This document shows, piece by piece, positions 2,218-43,345 of a stretch of 64,000 nucleotides of DNA; the first letter of the stretch is position 1; each line of letters starts with the position of its first letter. The notes under the pieces were generated by a model that ran no database searches, was not told the DNA's origin, and was given only the letters and a program-made list of their open reading frames with translations. The stretch covers positions 8,789,001-8,853,000 of the forward strand of contig NC_063155.1 in the NCBI RefSeq assembly GCF_020921035.1. The letters are read 5' to 3'. The stretch comes from Rhodamnia argentea (lineage: Eukaryota > Streptophyta > Magnoliopsida > Myrtales > Myrtaceae). A program made the translations under genes and the position numbers.

Positions 2218-2994
2218 CTACTGCGTCTTAAACCCTCCATCGATGACGAGGTTGTGGCCGGTCACAAATTCGGAATCCTCAGAAGCAAGAAACACCACGG
2301 CATCGGCCACGTGCTTCGCTTTCAAAACCCCTTTCAAGCTCGAGGTCGGCTCTAACAGCCTCTCGATTTCCTCTTTGCTCCGGCCGAGGTAGTTGGATAC
2401 CATTGGTGTCGCGACCCCTCCTGGAGACACGCAGTTCACGCGTATGCCGTGCGCTCCGAGTTGCTTGCTCGCCGACCTCACCAAGCCCAGCACCGCATGC
2501 TTAGACATGGTGTAGTCCATGTACTCGTTGCTCCCAGTGGTCGCCACGACGCTCGCCGTGCAAATTATGCTTCCCCCTGTGTCCTTATCGACCATCGCAC
2601 GGGCCCCGTGCTTCACGCACAACGCCATGCCTTTGACGTTAACGGCAAAAAGGCGCTCGAAGGCCGACACGTCGAAATCGAGAATGTCTTGTTTGACAGA
2701 ACTGAACACTCCCGCATTGCTGAACATGATGTCCAGCTTACCATACAATTGAAGGGTCGACTGTACTAAGGACATCACCTGTTGCTCGTCCGTGACATCG
2801 CAGCGAACGTAGGTGCAGGAGTGGGAGCCGATCGATTCCACGAGGTCTCGGCCTTTCTCATCCTGGATGTCAGCAATCACGACTTTCGCACCGTGACTGG
2901 AGAAGCATCGGACGGTTTCCTCGCCCATGCCACTCGCGCCGCCGGTTACGATGGCTACTTTGCCCTCTAGCTTTTTCAAGGCAGAGCTCATCAT
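2218..2994 (-). CDS. Single-exon short-chain dehydrogenase/reductase, copy A
   Basis: The gene encodes 258 aa in one exon. It is a classical SDR of the plant SDR110C type (secoisolariciresinol dehydrogenase, momilactone A synthase and xanthoxin dehydrogenase relatives). It should oxidise a hydroxyl group of a small molecule with NAD. Seen: TGGASGMG at 17-24 (cofactor loop), Asp42 after the second strand (favours NAD over NADP), NAG at 93-95, Ser148, and Tyr161/Lys165 in YTMSK. The length is a little short for the family (about 260-280 aa). The start is the first of two Met codons, about 115 bp below a TATA-like box. It differs from copy B at about 14 residues by my count. The substrate cannot be told from sequence. 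Confidence 0.88.
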   Translation of the reverse strand: MMSSALKKLEGKVAIVTGGASGMGEETVRCFSSHGAKVVIADIQDEKGRDLVESIGSHSCTYVRCDVTDEQQVMSLVQSTLQLYGKLDIMFSNAGVFSSVKQDILDFDVSAFERLFAVNVKGMALCVKHGARAMVDKDTGGSIICTASVVATTGSNEYMDYTMSKHAVLGLVRSASKQLGAHGIRVNCVSPGGVATPMVSNYLGRSKEEIERLLEPTSSLKGVLKAKHVADAVVFLASEDSEFVTGHNLVIDGGFKTQ

Positions 2995-3106
2995 CCCTTT
3001 CCGTATGCAAAGCCGGAAATGATCACTTGCCGAATGCTGCTCTTATTCAGATGAAATTATTAATGATCGCTTTCAGATATGATGCCGAGGGAAAACAGAA
3101 CTCTAG

Positions 3107-5600: not shown

Positions 5601-6729
5601 ATCGCTACATATATGTACACGTCCACAATAGTGTCGCCATCTCCACCTACTCCCCCGACCCACGGAACAAAAGAGATGTGTGGACAGACCTTCGAGTGTC
5701 GGGAATGGTGGAGATACGACGGTGATACGACGATGTGGCAGCGACGGTTCGGGCGCACGATCTCCTCTCTCTCTCTCTCTCTTACTCTCTTTAGCTCTCT
5801 ATGTGTTCTTCCCGTCAAGTGGTAGAACTGATCCCCAGCTCCCATGGCCTTCCTCCCTCTAAAACAGATTTTGTTTTCGCTTCTCCCGTAACATAAATTT
5901 TGGCGCCAGATTTTGTTTTGGGCGACAGGCCGAGCCAGCTGGCGTGCAGGAAGTTGTTTGGAAAGCTCTTGAACTCAGTCGAGCTTCACTGGTCTTCCTC
6001 TATTCGTGCGTTTATTCCCGGAGCTCCGTGGGCGTGCGCTGGAACAACCTGCAGTGCGTATCTTTGTTGACATGGTCCACTAGTTGACCGGGTCACTTTT
6101 TTTTGCATGCCTAATTCAACATTAATGTGACCCTTTTCCATGAAATTGAACCTCAAAATTAGTCTCTGGAACAAGAACATCATCTAAGAATGACAAGTTT
6201 GGGTCCGATTGGTTCAGTTTTTTGCAAAAACCCCAAATTTCAAGTTTAATCCGAATGTAAAATCTATCCAATTAGGGTACTTAATGGCTAATCTGTGCTA
6301 ATTTGACCTCACCAGTGTGTTTAGAATGCCAAAAAATTTATTGGACCAAAATGCAATTAAAAGTGTAAGAATCAAATGTCATAACCGACTCAAAGTAAGA
6401 AAAACAATAAAAAGACCTCAAATGATTTTTTTGTGATTTTTCAAGCATTTTTTCTATTTTCGAAAAATATTAAAAAAATGAAAAAAAATATGAAAAATTA
6501 TTTTTTGTTCAAAATTGGTTCCTTATTCTAGGCCAAGGTTCCCAAAGTTGATTTTTCATTTTTATGAATTTTTAAATATTTTTTAAAAGAAAAACTAATT
6601 AAAAATCAGGTATCAACACATATCCATACACCTAAAAAAGTAAATTTAAAGATTTTTCATTTTAAAAAATGATCAAAAAATGTCCACATCAGTGTTAGCC
6701 ACACCACGCAAGATGGCCAAAGTCCTCGT
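5601..6729. other. Intergenic, no gene recognised
   Basis: This stretch holds a short CT microsatellite near 5763-5788 and AT-rich DNA with runs of A and T. No ORF here has recognisable protein similarity. The overlapping frames near 5564-5862 arise from low-complexity sequence. Confidence 0.6.
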
Positions 6730-13428: not shown

Positions 13429-14205
13429 CTACTGCGTGTTAGGCCCTCCGTCGATGATGAGGTTGTGGCCGGTCACGAATTCGGAATCCTCAGAAGCAAG
13501 AAACACCACGGCATCGGCCACGTGCTTCGCCTTCAAAACCCCTTTCAAGCTCGAGGTCGGCTCGAACAGCCTCTCGATTTCCTCTTTGCTCCGGCCGAGG
13601 TAGTTGGATACCATTGGTGTCGCGACCCATCCCGGAGACACGCAGTTCACGCGTATGCCGTGCGCTCCGAGTTGCTTGCTCGCCGACCTCACCAAGCCCA
13701 GCACCGCATGCTTAGACATGGTGTAGTCCATGTACTCCTCGCTCCCGGTGGTCGCCCAGATGCTCGCCGTGCAAATTATGCTTCCCCCTGTGTCCTTATC
13801 GACCATCGCACGGGCCCCGTGCTTCACGCACAATGCCATGCCTTTGACGTTAACGGCAAAAAGGCGCTCGAAGGCCGACACGTCGAAATCGAGAATGTCT
13901 TGTTTGACAGAACTGCACACTCCCGCATTGCTGAACATGATGTCCAGCTTACCATACAATTGAAGGGTCGACTGTACTAAGGACATCACCTGTTGCTCGT
14001 CCGCGACATCGCAGCGAACGTAGGTGCAGGAGTGGGAGCCGATCGATTCCACGAGGTCTCGGCCTTTCTCATCCTGGATGTCAGCAATCACGACTTTCGC
14101 ACCGTGACTGGAGAAGCATCGGGCGGTTTCCTCGCCGATGCCACTCGCGCCGCCGGTTACTATGGCTACTTTGCCCTGTAGCCTTTTCAAGGCAGAGCTC
14201 ATCAT
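13429..14205 (-). CDS. Single-exon short-chain dehydrogenase/reductase, copy B
   Basis: The gene encodes 258 aa with no intron and is about 95% identical in protein to copy A by eye. All expected SDR elements are present: TGGASGIG at 17-24, Asp42, NAG at 93-95, Ser148 and YTMSK with Tyr161 and Lys165. The differences from copy A include Val149-Val150 to Ile-Trp, just after the catalytic serine, and Gly193 to Trp in the loop after the PG motif. Those loops line the substrate pocket in this family, so the two copies may differ in substrate. The role is NAD-dependent oxidation of a small alcohol. The true substrate is unknown. The upstream TATA-like box is kept at 14318-14327. Confidence 0.88.
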   Translation of the reverse strand: MMSSALKRLQGKVAIVTGGASGIGEETARCFSSHGAKVVIADIQDEKGRDLVESIGSHSCTYVRCDVADEQQVMSLVQSTLQLYGKLDIMFSNAGVCSSVKQDILDFDVSAFERLFAVNVKGMALCVKHGARAMVDKDTGGSIICTASIWATTGSEEYMDYTMSKHAVLGLVRSASKQLGAHGIRVNCVSPGWVATPMVSNYLGRSKEEIERLFEPTSSLKGVLKAKHVADAVVFLASEDSEFVTGHNLIIDGGPNTQ

Positions 14206-14317
14206 CCCTTTCCGTATGCAACGTCGGAAATGATCACTTGCCGAATGCTGCTCTTATTCAGATGAAATTATTAATGATCACTTTCAGATATGATGCCGAG
14301 GGAAAACAGAACTCCAG

Positions 14318-17379: not shown

Positions 17380-17748
17380 TGATGGGAGAAATCGACTGTG
17401 GGGCACTCAACAAGCACTCATAAAGGAACTTTGTTCACACAAGGAAGAGGAGACGAAAGGTGACTTTTCAATATACTGTATTCACAATCGATTCACCCAC
17501 ACTGAAATGGTTACAAGACAAGCCTTTATATAGGCATAATACAATGACTCTTCAATTACACAACTCATAAATAAAGAACAACTAAATGCATTAATCAAAA
17601 CATTGTAACTCTAAAAGACACTTGGAAAGACTACAAAGCATTAAAGGAAATTCTTGATTCATGCACTAGCGCGTGCATGCGCCTTGGGAGTCTAATGGAC
17701 TCATCGAAACCTTGGCAATACTTAATGAATTTGGTTTAATTTCCAACA
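17380..17748 (-). repeat. LTR of the Copia fossil (single, 369 bp)
   Basis: On the minus strand the LTR opens with TGTTGGAAATTAAACC directly after the purine tract and closes with a CA dinucleotide at the CGAAC duplication. No second LTR is found at the other end of the insert. Confidence 0.8.
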
Positions 17749-19416
17749 AAACTCCCCCTTAAACCAAGTTCTCTTCCGTCGATCATTCCAAGTAAACTTC
17801 TGAATTTCCGAAACACTTCGATCTTGAGAGGTTTCGTAAAAATATCTGCGACTTGATCACCGGTCTTCACATGCACAACTTCGATTTGTTTGTCGCTGAC
17901 TTGTTCTCGAATAAAATGATATCGAACATCAATATGCTTGCTCCTCTCATGAAAAACTGGATTCTTTGCCAAAGCAATGGCAGAAACATTATCAACAAAA
18001 ATTTTCGTTGCATCCTTTTGCTCCATATGGATTTCTTTTAGCAACTTTCTCAACCATATCGCATGACATACACACGATGATGCAGCAACATACTCCGCTT
18101 CACATGTCGACAGAGTAACACTGGATTGCTTCTTTGATGACCATGTAAAAGCGGTTTCACCCAGATAAAATACAAAACCCGTAGTGCTCTTTCGGTCATC
18201 GACATCTCCCCCATAGTCACTATCTGAATAACCTCCGAGTTGAAATAGTTCAGACTGATAATAATACAAGCCAAGAGAGATAGTACCTTTGATGTACCGA
18301 AGTATCCTCTTCGCTGCTTTAAGATGAGATGTCTTCGGATTCTCCATATATCGACTCACAATTCCGACACTTGTACATGATATCCGGTGCGGTACGGGTC
18401 AAATACCTCAAGCTTCCAATCAAGCTTCTATAATATGTCGAATCAACATCGATACCTTCATCGAACTTCGACGGTTTTGCACCACAATCCATAGGAGTAT
18501 TAACCTAAGTGCAATTTTTCATGTTGAATTTCTCAAGGATATTTTCAGCATATCCTTTACGGGAAATAAAAATCCCATCTGCATTTTGCTTTACTTCGAT
18601 ACCCAGAAAATAATTCATGAGACCATTATCCGGCATCTCAAACTCTTTCACCATCAACGCTTTAAAAGTGTCGATCAATCCAAAAGTATTTCCTGTGAAG
18701 ACAAGATCATCAACGTATAAACATGCCAATAAAACATCACCTTTCTCGTGCTTCAAGTAGAGAGCATGTTCGTACGGACATTGTTCGAAGCCATTCGCCT
18801 TGAAATAAGTATCGATTCTGAAGCTCCAAGCTCTTGGAGTTTGCTTAAGCCCATACAAGGCTTTCTTTAATCTCAGCACTTTGTCTTCATGACCTTTCAC
18901 AACAAACCCAAGTGGTTGTTTGACATAAATTTCTTCTTCAAGAACACCATTCGGGAATGCCGATTTGACATCCATTTGATATATGGACCATTGATTTTGA
19001 GCTGCAATGGAAATCATTAGTCGGATGGTTTCCATTCGGATGACAGGTGCAAACACCTCGTCATAGTCAATCCCGGCTTTACGCTTGTAGCCCTTTGCGA
19101 CTAGTCCGGCCTTATAACGAGTGACTTCTCCTTTCTCGTTCTTCTTGGCCTTATACACCCATTTGACATCGATCGCCTTTTTGTCCTTCGGAAGGTCTAT
19201 GAGTTCCCGTGTTTGATTCTTTTCGATGGCTTCTATTTCTTCATCCATGGCTTTTCTCCATTTTTCTTCTTTAGCAGCTTCATCGAAAATAAGTGGTTCA
19301 CAGTCTGCGAGAAGACATACAAGATGGAGTTCTTCGGTGGTTTCATAAAGTTCAGATAATCTTCTCGATCTTGGTGCTATTGGTTCATCAACACCATTTG
19401 AAGAAGTTGGCGATAA
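17380..19416 (-). mobile_element. Partial Copia LTR retrotransposon inserted in SDR copy C
   Basis: This is a fossil of the Ty1/Copia family in minus orientation. The parts present are reverse transcriptase, RNase H, a polypurine tract near 17750 and one LTR at the left. Only the 3' portion of an element is here. It is broken, with few breaks in what remains. The insert is flanked on both sides by CGAAC (17375-17379 and 19417-19421), which occurs once at the empty site in copy B. This indicates a 5-bp target duplication. It is young compared with the array, since the host halves are still open. Confidence 0.9.
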
Positions 19417-20171
19417 CGAACAGCCTCTCGATTTCCTCTTTGCTCCGGCCGAGGTGGTTGGATACCATTGGCGTCGCGACCCATCCCGGAGACACGCAGT
19501 TCACGCGTATGCCGTGCGCTCCGAGTTGCTTGCTCACCGACCTCACCAAGCCCAGCACCGCATGCTTAGACATGGTGTAGTCCATGTACTCCTCGCTCCC
19601 GGTGGTCGCCCGGATGCTCGCCGTGCAAATTATGCTTCCCCCTGTGTCCTTATCGACCATCGCACGGGCCCCGTGCTTCACGCACAACGCCATGCCTTTG
19701 ACGTTAACGGCAAAAAGGCGCTCGAAGGCCGACACGTCGAAATCGAGAATGTCTTGTTTGACAGAACTGCACACTCCCGCATTGCTGAACATGATGTCCA
19801 GCTTACCATACAATTGAAGGGTCGACTGTACTAAGGACATCACCTGTTGCTCGTCCGCGACATCGCAGCGAACGTAGGTGCAGGAGTGGGAGCCGATCGA
19901 TTCCACGAGGTCTCGGCCTTTCTCATCCTGGATGTCAGCAATCATGACTTTCGCACCGTGACTGGAGAAGCATCGGGCGGTTTCCTCACCCATGCCACTC
20001 GCGCCGCCGGTTACTATGGCTACTTTGCCCTGTAGCCTTTTCAAGGCAGAGCTCATCATCCCTTTCTGTATGCAACGTCGGAAATGATCTCTTGCCGAAT
20101 GCTGCTCTTATTCAGATGAAATTATTAATGATCACTTTCAGATATGATGCCGAGGGAAAACAGAACTCTAG

Positions 20172-21440: not shown

Positions 21441-22520
21441 ACGGAACATATAGAGTCAAAATATTGGGAATTATTGCCTCATGGCATAGTAGGTCTTTGA
21501 CTGTTCCATCGGTGCAATTCAACGGCACCAACGCATACTCGTCATAGCGAATTTAAAGATCAAAGCAAAATGATACTTTCTCAAACAAAGATAGCGTCAG
21601 CTAGACTTATTTTTCTCCGGCAGCAAACAAAGCACAGGCAAGTTAAAGAGACTGCAACTTTTTATTTCTAGATCCCCTGGGATAGACCATCATTCCATCC
21701 TCCGTCGACCGCCAGATTGTGGCCGTTGATGAATTCCGCCTCTTCGGACGCGAGGAAAACCACGGCGTCGGCCACATGCTTCGCTTTCAGCACTCCTTTC
21801 AAGCATGAGCTGGACTCGAACATCCTCTCGCCTTCCTCCTTGCTCACGCCGAGCGCTCCACGGAGCAATGGCGTGGCGATCGTTCCAGGGGAGACACAGT
21901 TCACCCGTATACCGTAGGCTCCGAGTTGCTTGCTCGCTGACCTCGCCAGACCCAGCACGGCGTGCTTAGACATCACGTAGTCCACGTGCTTCTCGCTACC
22001 GATGCTGGCTGCGAGGCTCGCCGTGCAAATTATGCTTCCCTTCACGCCCCCCGCCACCATGGCGCCCGCCGCGTGCTTGACGCAGGCGGCCATTCCCCGA
22101 ACATTGACGGCGAACAGGCTTTCGAAAGCAGGTATGTCGAACTCGAGAATGTCTTGCTCGATGTTGTTCGCTACGCCCGCATTGCTGAACAAGATGTCCA
22201 GGTGACCGCTTGACCGGAGAGTCGATTCCACCAAGGACTTCACCTGACGCTCATCCGTGACGTCGCAATGGACGTAGGTGCACCGGTGGGATCCGATGGA
22301 CGCCACGAGGTCTCGGCCTTTTTCGTCCTGGATGTCGGCGATCACGACATACGCACCGTGGCTCGCCAGCCGATGGGCCGTCTCCTCGCCTATGCCGCTT
22401 GCGCCGCCGGTGACGATGGCTACTTTGCCGTCGAGCTTGTTTGAGGCGTGGCTCGTCATTTCTGCCGGCAGAGGATGGAAAGCTGATCACAAGATTGTCC
22501 TGTGAAGCTGTGCTGAGGAG
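21441..22520. repeat. SDR array module 4 (partial, carries the complete D gene)
   Basis: It begins with the same phrase as module 3 and matches the truncated-copy part of the other modules. Here the similarity continues into a complete SDR gene where the others break off. The rest of the module (remnant, A-type gene, minisatellite) does not follow. Confidence 0.8.
21668..22459 (-). CDS. Single-exon short-chain dehydrogenase/reductase, copy D
   Basis: The gene encodes 263 aa in one exon and is the complete version of the truncated copies in modules 1-3. It is a classical NAD-type SDR: TGGASGIG at 17-24, Asp42, NAG at 93-95, Ser148, and Tyr161/Lys165 in YVMSK. Compared with A and B it differs over much of the middle of the protein and has a longer tail (GGWNDGLSQGI). 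It therefore represents a second SDR type in the array. The first ATG is used. A TATA-like box lies about 80 bp upstream. Family members act on terpenoid, lignan or abscisic acid precursors. Which of these applies here is unknown. Confidence 0.88.
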   Translation of the reverse strand: MTSHASNKLDGKVAIVTGGASGIGEETAHRLASHGAYVVIADIQDEKGRDLVASIGSHRCTYVHCDVTDERQVKSLVESTLRSSGHLDILFSNAGVANNIEQDILEFDIPAFESLFAVNVRGMAACVKHAAGAMVAGGVKGSIICTASLAASIGSEKHVDYVMSKHAVLGLARSASKQLGAYGIRVNCVSPGTIATPLLRGALGVSKEEGERMFESSSCLKGVLKAKHVADAVVFLASEEAEFINGHNLAVDGGWNDGLSQGI

Positions 22521-32142: not shown

Positions 32143-32725
32143 GAGAAAATTCCAAAAAAAGTTTTTTTTTTTTTTGCTCCACTCTAATAAGGGTTGAAAT
32201 GTCATATTTTTCGGATAAAGGCATGAAATAAATCTTGTTTCAATCAATAAGCTTGAAATACCTCTATTATTTTAAAAATAGCCTAATAAGAGGCATTCGT
32301 CATTTAATTCTTTTGCATTTTTTCTTTTTTCTTTTCATTTTTCCCTTCTTCTTTTTTTTGTGTTTCTATCAATGAGGTTCGCCTCGACCGGGCCCTCACC
32401 GGCCGCGTGCTAGGCGACCCTCGCCCATGACTAGGGAGGTCGGCCCTCACAAGATCGGGTGAGGGATTGCCTCGCCCAACCCTCGCAAGTGCTCGGCCAT
32501 CACCGGAGACCAATAACCGGCGAAAAGGAAGGAAAAAAAAAAGGGGAAAAAGAAAGGAAAAATAAAAAATGAGAAGAATTTCAAAGAATGAAAATTACGA
32601 AAATACAATTAGTTAGACATTTTTGAAAAAGCAGGACATTTTAAGTCATTATTTGAAACAAGCTCTACTCCAGATTCTTATTTAACAAAATAATGACATT
32701 TCAAGCTCTTATGTGAAAATTTCTC
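32143..32725. mobile_element. Mutator-type MITE family B, copy 1
   Basis: The ends are GAGAAAATTCC on the left and the inverse of GAGAAATTTTC on the right. The arms repeat AATAAGGG-like words. The flanks ACAAATTAA (32134-32142) and ACAATTTAA (32726-32734) match at 8 of 9 bases, a Mutator-type 9-bp duplication. The core is GC-rich and low in complexity. No gene piece is recognised in it. Confidence 0.8.
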
Positions 32726-33248
32726 ACAATTTAAAAAAATAAAATTAGTCTTTTAACGCTTTTCTATCATGCCATTAAGTACTAAGGAAAAAGCCTATGT
32801 GGTGGGTTCGACTCTCTGCCTTGGGTCTCCTCACCCGGAAAAGGACGACCACGGTCCTGTCCTTACCAAAATAGGCCAAGGCCGGTGGGCAAGGTGGTTT
32901 AAGTAATAATAAGAAAATATGAATTTTTATATCATAAAAGATCATGTAATTTCGAGTCTCGATATGATTTCTATTCCCCCTAATGCAAGATAGAGAAGGT
33001 CTAGCACACAGTGACAAGGGCATACCACTACTTACATCCGACCAAAAAAAAAAAAAAACAAAAGTACCAACGGAAAATGGTCTATTGACAAGAATGCTTA
33101 GAAAATTACCAAATAAATAACTAAGAAGACCGTGCCATTTTTAACACGTTACCACTTCCTCACGCTATGCTTAATCAATATTTGGCCAAATTAAACATTT
33201 TATCTTAATTAAGTTTGATCTTTATCCGTAGTATTGGTAAACATAATA
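32726..33248. other. Intergenic between two family B elements
   Basis: It holds a poly-A run at about 33044-33058 and no gene. See the rejected list for a possible SINE. Confidence 0.5.
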
Positions 33249-34395
33249 GGAAAAATTTAAAATAAGGACCTGAAATGCTTTCATTTTCTCAAATAAGGGC
33301 TCGAAGTGAATCTTATTTCAAATAAGGGCTTGAAGTGCCTTTTTTTTTTCCTCAAATGAGGGTCCGAAGTGAATATCATTTCAAATAAGGGTCTGAAGTA
33401 CTTTTTTTTCCCTCAAATAAGGGTCCGAAGTGAACTTTGTGTCGAATAAGAGCCTAACGTGGCAATGAAGTCTAAAAAAAAGACCCGATCTCAAGGATAT
33501 TTTTGTCATTTTTTTCTTTTTTTCCTTGTCTTTTCCTTTTCCTTTATATATATATAAAAAGAGAGAGAGAGACAAAAGCGCTGCCGCTCCATCACCAGTG
33601 GGGGTATCGGCGAAGGCCGGCGGGGTCGCTCCCGTAGTTCTTCCGGCGACCCTCTTTCCTATCCTGAGATCGTCGTCTTGCTGCTCCATTTGTCTTCATT
33701 GCACACTAACAATTTCATCGGCCTAGGAAAGAACCGATGGTTCGAGGGATGTTCCTATTTGGCCAAATCACCATGTTCGGGTTCTTCATTGGAATGTAAA
33801 TGATGGAGAAGGATTTTGAGGATTCCGCGAACTTGTTTTTTTGCATGTTATCATTAAAAGAGCATCTAGTTCGAAAGAAGACCAGAATGAAAAGACTTCG
33901 TTGTAATTCTAACCGGAGGGAGTTTCTTATAAAAGCGTCCCTCAGCTCTGAAAGCTGTGCGTTCCTTGCTCAACCCCAGGACCGCGTACAAATCCTTCGT
34001 CTTCCTCTTCTTCTCTTCTCCACTCGCCATTGATTCTCTTAACTTCAATCAATGCCTTGGCTTCTTCTTCCTCCGTTTGATCCGGACCCGTCCGACGGTG
34101 GGGCGGCGGCCCGCCTGTGTTTGTTCCTTTTTTTTATTTTCAATTTTTTAATTTCTTTTTTAACTAAAAAAAGAAAAAAAGGGAAAAAAAAAACAAAGAA
34201 AAAGGTTAAAAAAATCAAAAAGGTGAAATGACGAAAATATCCTTTAGGTTAGGCCCTTTTTTGAGACTCTGTGGCCATTTCGGGCCCTTATTTGAATCTA
34301 TCACGCTACTTCGGGCCATCATTTAAAACAAAGTTCACTTTAAGCCCTTATTTGATAAAATAATAACACTTTGAACCCTTGTTTGGAATTTTTCC
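33249..34395. mobile_element. Mutator-type element family B, copy 2, carrying a DnaJ gene piece
   Basis: The terminal repeats are GGAAAAATTTAAAATAAGG on the left and GGAAAAATTCCAAACAAGG (inverse) on the right. The target duplication is AACATAATA (33240-33248) and AACATAATG (34396-34404), 8 of 9 bases. The arms match the other family B copies. The interior contains host-derived sequence including the start of a J-domain protein gene on the minus strand, so it is a Pack-MULE by structure. Confidence 0.85.
33920..34030 (-). pseudogene. Captured DnaJ (J-domain) gene fragment
   Basis: From an ATG at 34030 the minus strand reads MASGEEKKRKTKDLYAVLGL, then SKE. This is the typical start of a plant nuclear/cytosolic J-domain protein up to helix I. 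The following bases still spell CTASELRDAYKKL if one or two small length changes are allowed, so helix II was captured and has since shifted frame. The HPD motif and the rest of the protein are not found. The fragment lies inside the Mutator-type element at 33249-34395. Confidence 0.75.
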
Positions 34396-40085: not shown

Positions 40086-40430
40086 AGATAAAAATTTTAT
40101 ACACTCACCTAAAATTATCGCTATTAGCTTCAACAATCTAACGAACTTTGCTAGTATAACGGTCTTTGAGCTACTGTGAGAATAACATCATATTATAAGT
40201 CACAAATACTTAAGAGAATGGATCCCATAATAATTTTTAATTATTTGCTATTTATTTTTTATGACCCAAAATAGACTGCTATTTTTAAAGTAGATTTATT
40301 TAAAGACAAGTACTTAAGTATTTCTCTTTTTTATATGTACTCTAAAACATGTCTTACTTAAGGACACTTATTTAAATGGCTCAGTTTACTTTGGTATTGC
40401 AACCTTTTAATAAACCACACGCAAAGATAT

Positions 40431-41409
40431 GTGAAATTTTCAAATAAGGACTCGAAGTGCTTTTATTTTCTCAAACAAGGGCATGGTTTAAATATTATTT
40501 AAATAAAAACCTGAAGTGATCATGTAGTCTCAAAAAAGAGCCTGGCCTAAAGTGCGTTTTCGTCATTTCCCTTTTATTTTTGCGCAAAGTCGCCTACGGA
40601 GCTGCTACTCTCTGTCTTCTGTGTCCGCTCTTCTCTCTCTCTCTCTTTGCCCCACACTGCGTAAGAACCTCAAACCTCTGCTTCACAAGGTGGAAGCCTC
40701 CACTCTCAAACCAATCCCTGTCCCCATGGTTCTCCGCCACCCCCCACCTCCACCCTCATCAAGAGCTTCAACGCCCTCTACGACTCCATCCTCCACCCCT
40801 CATTCTCTTCCTCCCCTCCTCAACCTCCACCACCGCCGACCTCGACCTCGCCACCATCTTCGCCTTCGCCTCGTGGTTCTTCTTCTCCTCCTCGGGCCAC
40901 TCCAAATCCATCATTGACTACACGGCTTTCATCCCCATCGCTACCCCCTTCGGCGCTGCTCGTCGACAATAGTGTCGCCATCCCCACCTACGTGGACTTC
41001 TGGCTGTCCATGCAAGAAATGGTGGAGGCCCGCCAGTTGTTAGACGTAAAGTCTGATTTGGACTCAGGCAAGGGTCGCAGGCCCTCGTGGAGGCACCGGC
41101 GACCCCCCACTAGTGGTGGGGTGACGGCCCTCTATGTGTTTTTCTTATTTTTTTTAATTTTAAAAAAACTAGAAAAAGGAAAAAAAAACAAAGAAGAAAA
41201 TCAAATAAAGGGAAATGACGAAAATGCCCTTGAGCCTAGGCCTTTTTTTGAGACTTTATGCCACTTTACGCCCTTATTTGACATAAGGTTCACTTTAGGC
41301 CTTTTTTGATAAAATGAGGACACTTTAGGCCCTTATTTAAAATAATGTTCACTTCATACTTTTATTTGAGAAAACGAAAGTACTTTAGGCTTTTATTTAA
41401 AATTTTCCC
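40431..41409. mobile_element. Mutator-type element family B, copy 3, carrying an OVATE-family gene piece
   Basis: The ends are GTGAAATTTTCAAATAAGG on the left and GGGAAAATTTTAAATAAAAG (inverse) on the right. The flanks CAAAGATAT (40422-40430) and TAAAGATAA (41410-41418) match at 7 of 9 bases. The arms match copies 1 and 2. The interior at about 40585-41075 is GC-rich and gene-like, see the next entry. Confidence 0.8.
40585..41075 (+). pseudogene. Captured OVATE family protein (OFP) gene piece
   Basis: Recognisable OFP segments appear in order across the plus-strand frames: KSFNALYDSILHPSFSSS near 40761, DLDLATIFA then FFFSSSGHSKSIID near 40850-40915, and the start of the OVATE domain (SVAIPTY, FWLSMQEMVEARQLLDVKSD) at 40967-41050. 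The rest of the OVATE domain is replaced by low-complexity element core. OFPs are transcriptional repressors that shape organ growth. The pieces lie in more than one frame, so the copy is not a working gene. It has no intron, as in most OFP genes. Confidence 0.75.
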
Positions 41410-42233
41410 TAAAGATAAGGTCACATTCGAAGACTTACGACATAAGCAAGCCAATTGAAAAGCGTGCAAAATAAGCAAGAGTCTGACTACATTCTGCCGA
41501 GTACAATCTTCAGGCCATCCGAGGGCCTTGGATGTGGTAGATGAAGTAGTTTTTACATCTGGATTTTTCAGTGCCCACCTACAAAATTTACAGATAACCA
41601 TAAGAACACGTCCGATTAAATGCAGCAGCATGCAAGAAAATTCATCAAGTTAACAAAGTATCCAAACTTCTTTTTGCCCGGATGAAGTGAAAGCATGAGG
41701 TAATTTACTTGTATCCTACGCATAAATGACGCAGAAAAAGATCGATTTGCATCCTGGCGAGCATGTTCGCGGTGCATATTCTTGATCCCCCGCCGAAAAC
41801 TTGGAAGGATCCTGGTTTTGCCGGTTTCTGTAGACATAAACGGTAAGCTGTTAAGACAAACAATGCGATGAATTATTCAGAAAATTCGGCAGATGGGTGA
41901 GACAATATCAACGTACATTCCATCGATCCAGGTTGAAGAATAATGGATCTTCGAAATTTCTTGAATGTGTAGGACCGGATCGAAACCACACGATAACTTT
42001 CCATCCATTAGGAAACACATAACCTGAAAGTCTTTGTTATCATCAGAACATGATTACAAAAGAACGAACTTCCAACATCTACAAAACTCACCCGTCGAAC
42101 TTCTTTTACGTACCTTGATATTCGACTTCTCGATCGCCATATCGAAACACAAAACCCAACACATCCGCCATCCTAAGTATTTCTTCCATCACCTTAAGAA
42201 AATAGATGAATTAATTCAAGTTCGACATTTTTT

Positions 42234-43279: not shown

Positions 43280-43345
43280 TAAAACAACGGCACATTTGGC
43301 TCTTATTTGAGAAACTGAGGACATTTCAGGCCTGTATTGGGAATT
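43280..43345. mobile_element. Family B arm fragment
   Basis: About 65 bp match the right arm of family B (CTCTTATTTGAGAAACTGAG, GGGAATTTTTCC). It lies in intron 3 of the P450 pseudogene. Confidence 0.55.

Follow-up and report, generated by a model that had tools for sequence, protein, structure and literature searches.

A single-copy Mutator-like element holding a decayed 5' fragment of an OVATE family gene, very probably captured from the ancestor of a gene that is intact on another chromosome

A 9-bp target-site duplication is the mark of Mutator transposons. Duplications of 9–11 bp are used as a criterion for Mutator-like elements (MULEs) in the available text of PMC3310237, which also describes a strong preference of the Pack-MULEs of rice and maize for GC-rich sequence and notes that GC content is less variable in dicot genomes. 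According to the available part of PMC4858842, MULE-derived genes come mainly from GC-rich parental sequences; single-copy animal Pack-TIRs are described without a GC preference in the accessible portion of PMC8277862. The same portion gives gap filling as the mechanism proposed for Pack-MULEs and template switching as that proposed for related elements, the mechanism in plants being unsettled. A search of the openly licensed literature returned no report of the capture of an OVATE gene by a transposon (prior publication outside it is possible); a tomato flowering review was the one paper listed for OFP genes together with Mutator elements. Pack-MULEs are named in none of the 15 papers listed of 528 for Myrtaceae, and four papers listed for Eucalyptus contain the name Pack-MULE and that of the genus once each.

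The window analysed was a stretch of 64,000 nucleotides (C6:8789001-8853000), and the genome searched comprised 346.7 Mb in 74 contigs. The element at 40431-41409 is very probably a single-copy Pack-MULE that captured the 5' end of an OVATE family (OFP) gene from the probable ancestor of a gene now on contig C7 (the donor), and the captured piece is now a pseudogene, presumably silenced. The interior comes from a host gene that persists elsewhere without element arms, as defines a Pack-MULE. The features are as follows.

40422-40430, no strand: left target-site duplication, CAAAGATAT, matching 41410-41418 at 7/9 positions, or at 8/9 if shifted by one base
40431-41409: Mutator-type element, 979 bp
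40431-40581, + strand: left terminal inverted arm (inverted repeats), inner end set by alignment with family members
40584-41064, sense on the + strand: captured OFP segment, degraded, consisting of 45 nt from the 5' leader of the donor followed by its CDS nt 1-472
41065-41140, no strand: GC-rich interior of the element family, matched over short stretches in other members
41141-41409, + strand: right terminal inverted arm (inverted repeats), holding tandem sub-repeats of 59-60 bp
41410-41418, no strand: right target-site duplication, TAAAGATAA, paired with 40422-40430
33248-34394 (ends approximate), no strand: a further complete element of this arm family, with inverted arm matches and flanks AAACATAAT/CAACATAAT agreeing at 8/9 positions
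L009:1733-2184 (C7, about 26969733-26970184): element near the donor gene belonging to this arm family, complete, about 450 bp long and flanked by the perfect 9-bp duplication TAAGATAAA

The element has long terminal inverted repeats, with arms of about 150 bp (left) and about 270 bp (right); the inverted pair 40433-40503/41337-41407 is 70% complementary and the pair 40521-40574/41207-41260 is 83% complementary. A preliminary description of this DNA had recognized a Mutator-type element within terminal inverted repeats and a 7/9 target duplication. Both points were borne out, the former by the arms together with the 9-bp duplications of the family and the latter by the flanks themselves. The duplication of this element is imperfect and decayed, and its 8/9 match is weak when taken alone, as 3.2% of mismatched flank pairs reach at least 8/9 with shifts of up to 3 bases; the proof lies in the perfect 9-bp duplications carried by family members, because of which the element is called Mutator-type. 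Its longest open frame gave no transposase match in Pfam, and the element is non-autonomous. The genome is rich in MULE transposase domains (PF10551; 150 matches scored of 474 candidates), among which a transposase-bearing partner with these arms may lie, although none was identified.

Similar arms are widespread, the genome search yielding at least 44 matches to the right arm (40 scored among 1,796 first-look candidates). 30 distinct members were fetched, the target included, and the 22 with both ends placeable were measured, eight being dropped for want of a clear single mate (L034, L036, L037, L040, L041, L042, L047 and L054). Flank duplications were scored with shifts of up to 3 bases per end, and mismatched flank pairs served as the null. 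Perfect 9-bp duplications were present in 7/22 members versus a fraction of 0.000 of the mismatched pairs, and 9-bp duplications with at most one mismatch in 12/22 versus 0.032, the 22 members not being wholly independent (L043 and L045 resemble copies of each other). One of the 22 had a perfect 10-bp duplication and none had a perfect duplication of 11 or 12 bp. The measured members were 560-1204 bp in length.

In the window, the arms had been said to match two other elements; the arm matches were found, and they are better described as one complete element (about 33248-34394) than as two, with arm-like stretches beside it near 32536-32718 and 43291-43338. L043 and L045, at C3:25.79-25.87 Mb, were also seen to belong to this arm family. 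The interior of L043 has matches of 380-511 bp at 79-86% in five places outside its C3 cluster, besides which five short pieces were matched, and the L043/L045 interior may on this pattern be another captured segment, with its donor unnamed. At least 47 matches were obtained for the interior of L053 (40 scored of 74 candidates), which looks like amplified family sequence. Three interior frames of family members gave no Pfam match. The check for captures among other members covered a few of the 21 other interiors.

A search of the genome with 40580-41075 returned, besides the query itself, one substantial locus in two matches: C7:26972485-26972949 (318 bits, E 3e-85) and, in the donor leader, C7:26972971-26973001 (31 nt, 28/31 identical), the stretch spanning both being C7:26972485-26973001 on the - strand. 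The only other substantial genome match being the donor itself, the OFP-carrying element is single-copy; this search passes over short matches, and a 31-bp match at 5620-5650 (see below) was seen by local BLAST only. The coding part of the copy corresponds to 472 of the 660 nt of the donor CDS; it breaks off near codon 157, having covered about 29 residues of the OVATE domain. OFP segments had been reported to lie here in the right order up to the start of the OVATE domain; the order was confirmed, but the stopping point was misplaced, as the copy reaches into the domain.

The donor locus (C7:26972297-26972956) holds an unbroken reading frame of 219 amino acids in which Pfam places an Ovate domain at residues 129-189 (E 3e-24), and in the 9 kb around it the gene sits outside element arms. 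Its protein gave 20 matches in the genome; the donor itself is among them, and two belong to the copy, which was found in two frames (E 6e-12 and 6e-8). The closest paralogue of the donor, at C1:23662140, shares 60% identity with it over residues 84-196. At the DNA level the donor scored 318 bits, and none of the 17 other OFP-search loci compared exceeded 43.7 bits (L012, L016 and L018 were set aside, and the final three of the 17 match weakly). The genome search proposed in the preliminary description was therefore informative in the way it had foreseen: one intact OFP locus stands far above the other OFPs and lies outside arms, and neither a failure of every OFP gene to exceed background nor a scatter of unrelated armless copies was encountered.

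That the source was some other OFP gene, or a paralogue since lost, and not the direct ancestor of the C7 gene, is quite unlikely. The identity of just 82% between copy and donor at aligned sites leaves room for an extinct close paralogue, but no other OFP locus found comes close (the next is at 43.7 bits) and the leader, too, matches C7 (28/31). The L009 element is located on the 3' side of the donor, about 2.1 kb from its stop codon, and holds all substantial arm matches in the 9 kb, the remaining ones being short (33 bp or less). Proximity of the donor to the element family was considered as evidence and given no weight, because 1/17 of the other OFP-search loci (L022) likewise carries an arm match in the 1.5 kb flanking it on each side.

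The OFP homology starts at 40584, about 3 bases inside the inner edge of the left arm, and stops at 41064, adjoining interior sequence of the family; the short matches of 41065-41140 to other interiors (for example those of L046, L006, L055, L057 and L050) are of about 31-58 bp at 74-90%. This fit to arm edge and family interior argues against an OFP pseudogene that arose by retroposition or segmental duplication and came to lie between two element arms by chance, as does the bracketing of the OFP piece by arms and flanks at the usual size for the family (979 bp versus 560-1204 bp). Such an origin would account for a piece beginning 45 nt before the donor ATG, and introns do not separate an RNA-derived from a DNA-derived copy when the donor frame has none; it is nevertheless highly improbable, as the copy ends within the coding sequence and only one OFP copy was found in the genome.

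For the preferred reading, capture by a Pack-MULE, the following course is proposed. A non-autonomous Mutator-like element would have taken into its interior a copy of the 5' end of an OFP gene with a single unbroken reading frame, most probably the forerunner of the gene at C7:26972297-26972956. Template switching while a break in the element was being repaired is the probable route; this step is inferred, and the junctions, inspected by eye, display no clear microhomology. Presumably after the capture, the element would have transposed to its present place on C6, leaving a 9-bp duplication. It would since have been silenced and methylated while the insert drifted as a pseudogene.

Copy and donor are identical at 378/461 aligned sites (82.0%), with 78 additional gap columns in eight gaps; for the coding part, local BLAST gave 349 identities in 470 columns with 62 gap columns. 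An old insertion is suggested by this identity and by an arm divergence of 17-30%. The copy has lost its start codon and contains frameshifts, so that it differs from a functional OFP in its start, in its broken frame and in an OVATE domain cut at about the middle. Mismatches at the three donor codon positions number 29/139, 16/138 and 24/138, with no third-position excess in the copy. The copy is dead as a gene and is under no coding constraint. The longest frame of the element, a stop-free frame of 214 codons covering part of the insert, gave no Ovate match in Pfam. A chimeric protein encoded by this frame was considered and rejected, the only Pfam match being below threshold (SOBP, E 0.19).

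C>T or G>A changes from donor to copy make up 43 of the 83 mismatches, and the reverse transitions number 12. By context, this decay affected 24/94 CG, 11/53 CHG and 8/151 CHH sites (Fisher p 4.8e-6 for CG and CHG versus CHH, p 0.002 for CHG versus CHH), and transitions were present at 11/156 A or T sites. In plants, CHG methylation marks silenced transposons, and the CG/CHG decay of the copy suggests that it was methylated in the past as part of a transposon. The mirror count from copy to donor gave 5/46 CG, 3/30 CHG and 3/184 CHH sites, all small counts; because a CG/CHG excess is present in this direction also, part of the context effect may be the ordinary mutability of CG and CHG sites and not methylation specific to the copy. 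It is scarcely probable that the element is a regulatory Pack-MULE, with transcripts or small RNAs acting on the parent OFP, or a new chimeric gene: antisense or small-RNA control of the parent would be possible in principle, with 8/464 of the 21-mers of the copy matching the donor exactly and 115/464 with at most two mismatches, and the stop-free 214-codon frame could be read as a chimeric gene, but the start codon is lost, frameshifts are present, codon constraint is absent, divergence from the donor is about 18% at aligned sites and the frame matches no Pfam family above the cut-off.

A second OFP-derived piece, a 41-bp snippet at 5621-5661 that the preliminary description does not mention, was observed at a break in a repeat that is possibly hAT-like. 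It matches the donor at 35/41 positions, and 5620-5650 matches the Pack-MULE copy at 29/31. The repeat broken at the snippet was matched in 20 other places in the genome; three copies in the same orientation continue differently, and one copy has a weak hAT-like match (E 0.011) that does not reach the cut-off. The translation of the snippet aligns with the donor past the end of the DNA match (score 57, with no more than 42 in any of 1,000 shuffles); taken alone, the portion outside the DNA match is marginal (reached by 4.4% of 5,000 shuffles). Pfam found nothing in this translation. A genome search with the snippet returned only itself and its duplicate, the snippet and its surroundings being duplicated at C6:8775867-8776129 (99%).

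Snippet and copy agree against the donor at four bases, which are all of the copy-donor differences in that stretch. Because the four bases all lie at donor CG or CHG sites (read by eye), common descent of snippet and copy is indistinguishable from parallel decay. That OFP sequence entered two unrelated transposons within 64 kb, the two pieces sharing an intermediate ancestor, is unlikely; if the common descent were true, a captured fragment would have passed between transposon families.

Elsewhere in the window, frames for a Copia-type reverse transcriptase and RNase H (named by eye) were noted at 17736-20107 on the - strand, running into the 3' part of a short-chain dehydrogenase-like frame (19388-20107). 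This frame belongs to a set of similar ones in the window, at 2218-3042, 13429-14253, 19388-20107 and 21668-22486. It looks as though a retroelement was inserted into one copy of a tandem short-chain dehydrogenase-like array.

The capture had been called unusual on the grounds that OFP genes are GC-rich and intronless. This view was not upheld: MULEs prefer GC-rich donors according to the available text of PMC4858842 and PMC3310237, and 18/22 family members, the target included, contain a stretch of 200 bp with a GC content of 60% or more. The case shows that a Pack-MULE can draw on a GC-rich developmental regulator whose frame lacks introns, as the reported GC preference of these elements would lead one to expect. 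The locus is a clean example of gene capture in which donor, junctions and decay are all readable from the DNA alone, and its CG/CHG decay suggests that the past silencing of captured fragments could be read without methylation data.

Among known systems, the multiple or tandem long-TIR MULEs described in the available text of PMC3310237 are alike in having arm sequence repeated within an arm, here in units of 59-60 bp, and differ in that neither end here shows a second complete arm. The animal Pack-TIRs, as presented in the accessible portion of PMC8277862, are alike in being single-copy with a foreign segment filled in, which is mostly explained there by gap filling, and unlike in their hosts and transposon families. 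The closest likeness is to the Pack-MULEs of rice, maize and tomato, with which the element shares long inverted arms, 9-bp duplications, the lack of a transposase and a 5' fragment of a GC-rich gene from another chromosome whose donor is still intact. There is no difference of kind, the fragment here being an old one, at 82% identity, whose source is an OFP gene. Pack-MULE capture is a well-known kind of event, met here with a clear source.
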